This document shows, piece by piece, positions 27,261-44,400 of a DNA stretch of 51,186 nucleotides. The stretch comes from Candidatus Magasanikiibacteriota bacterium. Lineage in GTDB: Bacteria; Patescibacteriota; Patescibacteriia; Magasanikbacterales; UBA922. Each line of letters opens with the position of its first letter. The first letter of the stretch is position 1. The notes beneath the pieces are model-generated. The model was given only the letters and a program-made list of their open reading frames with translations. It searched no databases and was not told where the DNA came from. The stretch is from contig JABIFP010000003.1 in the NCBI GenBank assembly GCA_018650645.1, positions 1-51,186 of the forward strand, written 5' to 3'. A program made the position numbers and the translations under genes.

Positions 27261-28768
<1,508 letters not shown>

Positions 28769-42864: not shown

Positions 42865-44094
42865 TTAACTTGCCGCAGGAATCCAAAATGAAAATGTTGC
42901 TCCCATTCCTACCCCGGGGCTGGTTGCCCAGATGCGGCCAGCATGCGCCTCTACAAATTCTTTTGCAATATACAATCCAAGCCCAACACTTTTTTCTTCG
43001 CACACATTCATGGTGCGCGGTAGTCGTGAAAATCGTTTAAACAAAAGTGATGATTCTTCTTGAGAGAATCCTGCTCCTCTATCTTGCACATGCACTTCAA
43101 CACCTGTATCCGTTTGGACGGCACTTACATACACATCTTTTTCGAATGAATATTTCAGTGCATTTTCTATTAAATTTGAAATGATATGTTCTACTGCGCG
43201 CGCATCAGCATGAATAGATAATTCTGGCGCATCAATATGCACCTGCCCAAGATGATCTACATGAGCAAGTGCGCGGTTCAATACTTCTTCTAAAGAAACG
43301 GTTGTTTTTTCTATTGGTGCCCCCTGTTGTACTTTTGCAACATCTAAAAATCGACGTGTTAATCGAATTAATCGACTGGTTGATTGATCAATATTACCAA
43401 GTACTTCCTGAAGTGGCAGAGACGGTGTACCGTACGCTCCATCTTGAATAAGTTCTACGTAGCCAGACACAATAGTAAGCGGTGTTCTCAGCTGATGAGC
43501 CACAACAGAAACAAATTCAATTTGTTTGTCATAGAGTTGTCTGAGTAATCGATGTTCATCTGCGACTTTTTGATGGTCGTACAGCTGCCGCCTAAAAAGT
43601 GCAATGATAATATATGAAATTGCTACAGTAGCTGAAAATATTCCTGCGCGCAAAACAAAGTTGTTGCCCGAATAAGAAATAATTAATTGTGTAAATACAG
43701 TTAAACAGAGTAGAACAAAAAATGCTTCAAAGACGAGAAGTCTTCCAGGCAATGAGTGCATAAATGAAATGCACAATACAAAAAATAAAATAATTGAAGC
43801 AATATATACTTCTATGCTTTTTAAAAATCCCGGCAAAAAAGGTTCGCTGACCATCCAAATAACTAACAGCAAAGAAAAACAGGCACTTGCATACATCAAG
43901 CGTAGCAATGCTGTTTTGCCTTGATACGAGCCGGTGAACATAAAAAATACTCCTATAGCCCGCAGAGATAAAAACAGTGGCACGCACACTAATGTGTACT
44001 GCGCGAGTTTTAATATTGTTTGAGAATAAATACTTGCCCCCATACGGGAAGGTATAGTACTCCCAAAGTAAAAAACGACAAGCGTTGATGCCAT
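42865..44094 (-). CDS. Membrane sensor histidine kinase
   Basis: FVSVVAHQLRTPLTIVSGYVELI H-box, NLIENALKYS N-box, DRGAGF and GLGLYIAKEFVEAHAGRIWATS. Confidence 0.93.
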   Translation of the reverse strand: MASTLVVFYFGSTIPSRMGASIYSQTILKLAQYTLVCVPLFLSLRAIGVFFMFTGSYQGKTALLRLMYASACFSLLLVIWMVSEPFLPGFLKSIEVYIASIILFFVLCISFMHSLPGRLLVFEAFFVLLCLTVFTQLIISYSGNNFVLRAGIFSATVAISYIIIALFRRQLYDHQKVADEHRLLRQLYDKQIEFVSVVAHQLRTPLTIVSGYVELIQDGAYGTPSLPLQEVLGNIDQSTSRLIRLTRRFLDVAKVQQGAPIEKTTVSLEEVLNRALAHVDHLGQVHIDAPELSIHADARAVEHIISNLIENALKYSFEKDVYVSAVQTDTGVEVHVQDRGAGFSQEESSLLFKRFSRLPRTMNVCEEKSVGLGLYIAKEFVEAHAGRIWATSPGVGMGATFSFWIPAAS

Positions 44095-44143: not shown

Positions 44144-44174
44144 AAAAACAACCTCTTATGCAGAGATTGTTTTT
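44144..44174 (-). terminator. Terminator of the candidate ncRNA
   Basis: AACAATCTCT-GCATA-AGAGGTTGTTTTT, 10-bp stem. Confidence 0.8.
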
Positions 44175-44314
44175 GTTTGACCCCGAATTTGTCAGTCAAT
44201 CTATACCCCTATGTAACTAGGTGGGAGGTCGCAGAGCTGGCCCACGGGCCAGAGCAATATTGACTACCCTTGGTATAAAACTTAGCAGATATGATTGTAC
44301 TGCCAAGCGGGATC
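44144..44314 (-). ncRNA. Candidate structured ncRNA with pseudoknot
   Basis: P1 GATCCCG(44314-44308)/CGGGGTC(44185-44179); P2 44281-44307; crossing helices TATACC/GGTATA and AGTCAAT/ATTGACT; P4 CTGGCC/GGCCAG; own promoter and terminator; no convincing ORF. Confidence 0.6.
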
Positions 44315-44320
44315 TATTCT

Positions 44321-44349
44321 AGTATAGGATGCAACATGTTCAGTGTCAA
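44321..44349 (-). promoter_or_regulatory. Promoter of the candidate ncRNA
   Basis: TTGACA-CTGAACATGTTGCATCC-TATACT on minus strand; predicted +1 G at 44314. Confidence 0.75.
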
Positions 44350-44357
44350 TCCTCCTA

Positions 44358-44400
44358 TTCCCAGACAAAGTGGAGAAAAGTTCTCCATTTTGTCTGGGAG
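44358..44400 (-). terminator. Long hairpin downstream of the 44444-44743 gene
   Basis: CCCAGACAAAaTGGAGAA-ctt-TTCTCCAcTTTGTCTGGG; no strong U-tract, so terminator role uncertain. Confidence 0.45.

Follow-up and report, generated by a model that had tools for sequence, protein, structure and literature searches.

In B. subtilis 6S-1 RNA and in the 6S RNA of A. aeolicus, the release mechanism involves a central bubble collapse helix, which for B. subtilis 6S-1 RNA is supported by probing and mutation (PMC8876501). In E. coli 6S RNA, a 9-bp extended hairpin forms in the 3′ strand of the bubble on release (PMC8876501). Ms1 RNA is about 300 nt long, carries extra 5′ and 3′ hairpins and binds the core enzyme (PMC9130861). 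For 6S RNA in CPR bacteria, our literature search, which was of limited coverage, found no paper.

Here we analyze an element on the minus strand of a 51,186-nucleotide stretch of DNA (the window) from a Candidatus Magasanikbacteria genome of 1.04 Mb. The RNA is a strongly diverged 6S RNA (SsrS), of a known kind rather than a new family. We hold it highly probable that the element is a single-copy SsrS gene, with a sigma70 promoter and a terminator of its own, whose product would sequester RNA polymerase and be released through pRNA synthesis. A global regulator of RNA polymerase would then have been retained in genome-reduced CPR bacteria.

An independent gene encoding a 6S rod

The features on which the argument draws are as follows.

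44321–44349, minus strand: sigma70-type promoter TTGACA-N17-TATACT, 11 of 12 matches (–35 TTGACA at 44349–44344, 17-nt spacer, –10 TATACT at 44326–44321; read from the sequence)
44179–44314, minus strand: 6S RNA body of about 136 nt, with closing stem, central bubble and terminal stem
44308–44314, minus strand: outer closing stem P1, 5′ strand GATCCCG, pairing with 44185–44179 (read from the sequence)
44179–44185, minus strand: P1, 3′ strand CGGGGTC
44293–44302, minus strand: closing stem P2, 5′ strand CAGT-A-CAATC with A44298 bulged, pairing with GATTG (44201–44197) and ACTG (44196–44193); strong covariation, homologous helices
44193–44201, minus strand: P2, 3′ strand GATTGACTG
44270–44292, minus strand: 5′ strand of the central bubble, from the register with E. 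coli ssrS
44288–44292, minus strand: inner P2, ATATC, pairing with GGTAT (44207–44203); this inner helix covaries
44272–44277, minus strand: putative collapse helix, 5′ strand TATACC, pairing with 44207–44202; swap tests in the family and in nearest relatives
44202–44207, minus strand: GGTATA, the 3′ strand common to inner P2 and the collapse helix
44208–44221, minus strand: small hairpin CCTA...TAGG in the 3′ strand of the central bubble
44223–44269, minus strand: terminal stem (GGG 44269–44267/CCC 44225–44223, GTC 44264–44262/GAC 44230–44228 and the CTGGCC/GGCCAG apical hairpin)
44144–44174, minus strand: intrinsic terminator, a minimum-free-energy hairpin with a T tail

The element is an independent gene with a sigma70 promoter and a defined 3′ end. 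Transcription is predicted to start at about 44315/44314, and G44314 lies 6 nt past the TATACT. Comparable promoters, with at least 9 of 12 matches, stand at the same distance in all 31 near relatives with enough upstream sequence, compared with 17% of random stretches, and a terminator is found in 29 of these 31, compared with 11% of random stretches. The predicted fold (–61.9 kcal/mol) is far more stable than its shuffles (–41.3 ± 4.0 kcal/mol; z = –5.17), none of 200 being as good. These results bear out an earlier note on this DNA, which had proposed that a structured noncoding RNA is made here from a promoter, and up to a terminator, of its own. The promoter and start, the P1 helix (44314–44308/44185–44179), the CTGGCC (44252–44247)/GGCCAG (44242–44237) hairpin, the CCTA (44221–44218)/TAGG (44211–44208) hairpin and the terminator hairpin followed by T's (44174–44144) are all present as it described them.

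Comparative data back the 6S rod: a closing stem, then a central bubble that carries a small 3′ hairpin, then a terminal stem. In A2, for which ten homologues were aligned by MAFFT without structure, 85.2% of cells are paired; shuffles reach 69.3% and slid registers no more than 48%. Of the 36 pairs, 27 change on both sides. In a larger alignment of 55 sequences, which was fitted to the model R1 (see below) and hence leans towards it, 91.8% of pair cells are standard, compared with 62.7% in shuffles, with both-side changes in 32 of 36 pairs. Within this larger set, the small bubble hairpin is paired in 93.9% of cells and the GGG/CCC helix of the terminal stem in 94.7%, the latter with changes on both sides in five of seven pairs. 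The homologues that were folded are also predicted to have a closing stem, and the pairs homologous to P2 include GGCAG..CATATC/GATATG..CTGCC in one genome (G029) and GGTAGTG/CACTACC in another (G020).

Two further features of the window were noted. Directly upstream of the promoter, at 44359–44399, lies an inverted repeat with arms of about 18–19 bp that is unique in the genome and is possibly the terminator of an upstream transcript. The window also holds a full-length 16S rRNA gene (27263–28766, minus strand); neither a 23S nor a 5S rRNA gene was found within the window beside it, so the rRNA genes seem to be unlinked here.

Identity and distribution

The comparison with Rfam that the earlier note proposed returned no family at its cut-off for this region, and as top match, under relaxed thresholds, 6S RNA (RF00013), over the full model at 44176–44316 with a weak 22 bits (cut-off 46.4). 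A whole-genome scan with RF00013 did not pick up the element. All remaining Rfam hits, taken up to E 10 (among them miRNA and the rimP leader), were set aside as weak, short or lying on the neighbouring inverted repeat. Applied to 95 relatives, RF00013 matched five genomes of the family over its full length and below threshold, at 24–39 bits; all five loci are homologous to the window element. A sixth sub-threshold match, of 37.9 bits, lies at a contig end (L032, G002:C2:449-546). It is unlike the Magasanikbacteria type and looks like another type of 6S RNA, and genome G002 has its own copy elsewhere; contamination is possible.

The model R1, built from A2 and solely from the homologues in it, found the 55 loci of the larger alignment and scores the window element at 94.9 bits (44190–44305). 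RF00013 finds 30 sites across 379 Patescibacteria genomes, four of them above the cut-off. Twenty-four of the 30 fall on R1 sites and five more on sites of R1 or of a second model, R2, under other searches, which makes 29 of 30; the sole exception is in genome G101. Each of the four sites above the cut-off is also found by R1. Conversely, R1 run on the E. coli K-12 ssrS locus ranks ssrS itself first, correctly in register, at 12.6 bits; the runner-up scores 3.7. The family and its homology to Rfam 6S are shown by computation, and the proposal in the earlier note that the RNA is new is not supported, because the element is a divergent 6S RNA.

R1 matches occur in 35 of the 46 genomes of the family, as a single copy in 34 of these 35, and in 117 of the 379 genomes of the phylum. 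R2, the lineage model, matches 140 of the 379, nearly always once per genome, whereas the standard 6S model exceeds its cut-off in only four; about 0.4 chance matches are expected at E 0.001 over the 379 genomes, the model E-values being rough. Two genomes (G009 and G147) have two matches each, possibly two 6S paralogues. Eleven family genomes (G027 and ten others, a single-contig genome among them) have no R1 match, and a laxer R2 search of these 11 gave one insignificant match (E 0.66); we interpret this as loss of 6S RNA or extreme divergence. The homologous contigs are named Candidatus Magasanikbacteria, and the farther matches include Peregrinibacteria, confirmed with R1. A direct DNA similarity search of relatives returned mostly terminator matches, a few short ones leading to true homologues.

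A tRNA-Pro(GGG) gene shares the same locus of about 3 kb in ten of the 33 near loci and nine of the 22 distant ones, or 19 of 55 Patescibacteria loci (L041, L044, L047, L050, L051, L057, L060, L061, L064, L066, L073, L074, L079, L081, L083, L085, L088, L089 and L090). This synteny, common to near and distant loci, supports orthology. In several distant members (e.g., L085 and L088), the tRNA begins 9–13 nt past the modelled RNA core, and no terminator of their own was found in them. The adjoining tRNA together with the missing terminator suggests co-transcription in these members, with the 3′ end of the 6S RNA made by tRNA processing.

Two helices that share one strand

In near relatives, a GGTAT-like segment in the 3′ strand is complementary both to ATATC, with which it forms the inner closing helix, and to TATACC in the distal part of the bubble. 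For both helices, own strands pair better than swapped strands (permutation p = 5e-5 each), and a control region gave no signal in these swap tests. Pairing each sequence with its nearest relative, so that shared ancestry counts for less, favours own strands in 11 of 11 informative pairs for the inner closing helix and in 13 of 15 for the collapse helix; lengthening the 3′ segment weakens the latter result to 10 of 16 in the sign test (Wilcoxon p = 0.012). Since R1 includes the inner closing helix and not the collapse helix, the model does not bias the test of the latter. These two mutually exclusive, covarying helices are shown by computation in the near relatives; in the rest of the phylum the collapse helix is not clearly supported (p = 0.03–0.10). 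TATACC/GGTATA corresponds to the central bubble collapse helix of B. subtilis 6S-1 and A. aeolicus, and is a covarying alternative to the inner closing helix.

The earlier note had read these segments as part of a pseudoknot, which is not supported. Its TATACC (44277–44272)/GGTATA (44207–44202) half is a real helix, but as a nested alternative rather than as half of a pseudoknot. Its crossing partner, AGTCAAT (44265–44259)/ATTGACT (44200–44194), exists as complementarity and finds no support in relatives: swap tests of the crossing helix give p = 0.97 and 0.61, its predicted probability is negligible, and the ATTGACT strand, which lies within the 3′ strand of P2, pairs instead with CAGT-A-CAATC (44302–44293). 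Similarly, the 8-bp complementarity proposed as a hairpin, CTTGGCAG/CTGCTAAG, is present but is not a conserved element; among the 33 near relatives, this alternative fold is peculiar to two, the window sequence and one other.

For the window sequence, the computed minimum-free-energy structure combines a 5′ hairpin with the collapse helix. It is favoured over the canonical rod by 0.9 kcal/mol, a difference within the error of folding energies. A broader reading, which we offer tentatively and regard as rather less probable than its opposite, is that these RNAs form a distinct Patescibacteria subfamily of 6S RNA largely missed by annotation, that the Magasanikbacteria group has been selected for the two mutually exclusive helices as a conserved bistable switch, and that the free RNA of the window species may rest in the collapsed state. 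If so, this RNA would hold polymerase only conditionally.

Predicted mechanism and comparison with known RNAs

By homology, sequestration of sigma70-polymerase and pRNA-induced release are likely, and we infer that the RNA is expressed, binds polymerase, templates pRNA and is released. The central bubble of the rod would mimic an open promoter, and sigma70-RNA polymerase would bind the RNA in place of promoters. A long sigma70 gene is present in the genome. When nucleotides are plentiful, polymerase would take the 5′ strand of the bubble as template for a short pRNA. Along this strand, ATATC is followed by the predicted template start, U44284, and then by the distal segment with TATACC. The start is placed by the register with E. 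coli ssrS, and the pRNA is predicted to begin 5′-AGCAGAUAUGAUUG... Its lengthening would displace ATATC/GGTAT, the inner closing helix; GGTATA, thereby set free, would pair with the distal TATACC, and this collapse helix would close the bubble and release polymerase. The complementarity between bubble strands that such refolding would use is present in near relatives.

An improbable alternative is that this 6S-like RNA binds polymerase in another form, either the core enzyme, as Ms1 does, or polymerase with an alternative sigma factor, without serving as a template for pRNA. Ms1 demonstrates that a 6S shape can serve core binding (PMC9130861), and the window genome encodes one long sigma70 and three further sigma70-type genes (G000:C2:4024, G000:C5:46808, G000:C30:8863 and G000:C22:35425). 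However, the register of the pRNA template is conserved, with C at the homologous start position in 27 of 33 near relatives. Also maintained is the collapse helix, which has been described as acting in pRNA-induced release. Ms1 itself, with its length and extra hairpins (PMC9130861), gave no match to the element in the Rfam scan up to E 10.

Less probable still is that the element is a leader regulating in cis the histidine kinase gene that lies downstream (42865–44094). The element does lie directly upstream of this gene on the same strand, but its terminator stops the transcript ahead of the kinase, a proline or other tRNA often follows the RNA in relatives in the kinase's stead, and the element is homologous to 6S RNA. 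We give almost no weight to a new family with a pseudoknot: the window holds complementary segments for one and no Rfam match to the element exceeds the cut-off, but Rfam 6S sites coincide with ours in 29 of 30 cases and the crossing helix lacks support.

As a likely pRNA-released 6S RNA, the element can be placed among the described types. It shares with Ms1 of Actinobacteria a central bubble and the likeness to a 6S-type polymerase-binding RNA, and differs in its size of about 136 nt plus terminator and in the hairpins. With E. coli ssrS it shares the R1 alignment register (CCGA..AU, ACCU...AGGG) and the promoter-mimic architecture; unlike in E. coli, its 3′ bubble hairpin has only about 4 bp, and a collapse helix stands in the place of the extended one. 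Compared with the B. subtilis 6S-1/A. aeolicus type (RF00013), with its length of about 180–190 nt (187 positions in the model), it is shorter, its sequence has diverged beyond the Rfam cut-off, and the terminal arm of its relatives has a conserved internal loop, AUAUU/UGC. In common with this type it has the closing stem, the central bubble and the terminal stem, a small hairpin already formed in the 3′ bubble strand, and its own sigma70 promoter. To the probing and mutation of the B. subtilis RNA, our analysis adds comparative (covariation) evidence for a central bubble collapse helix.
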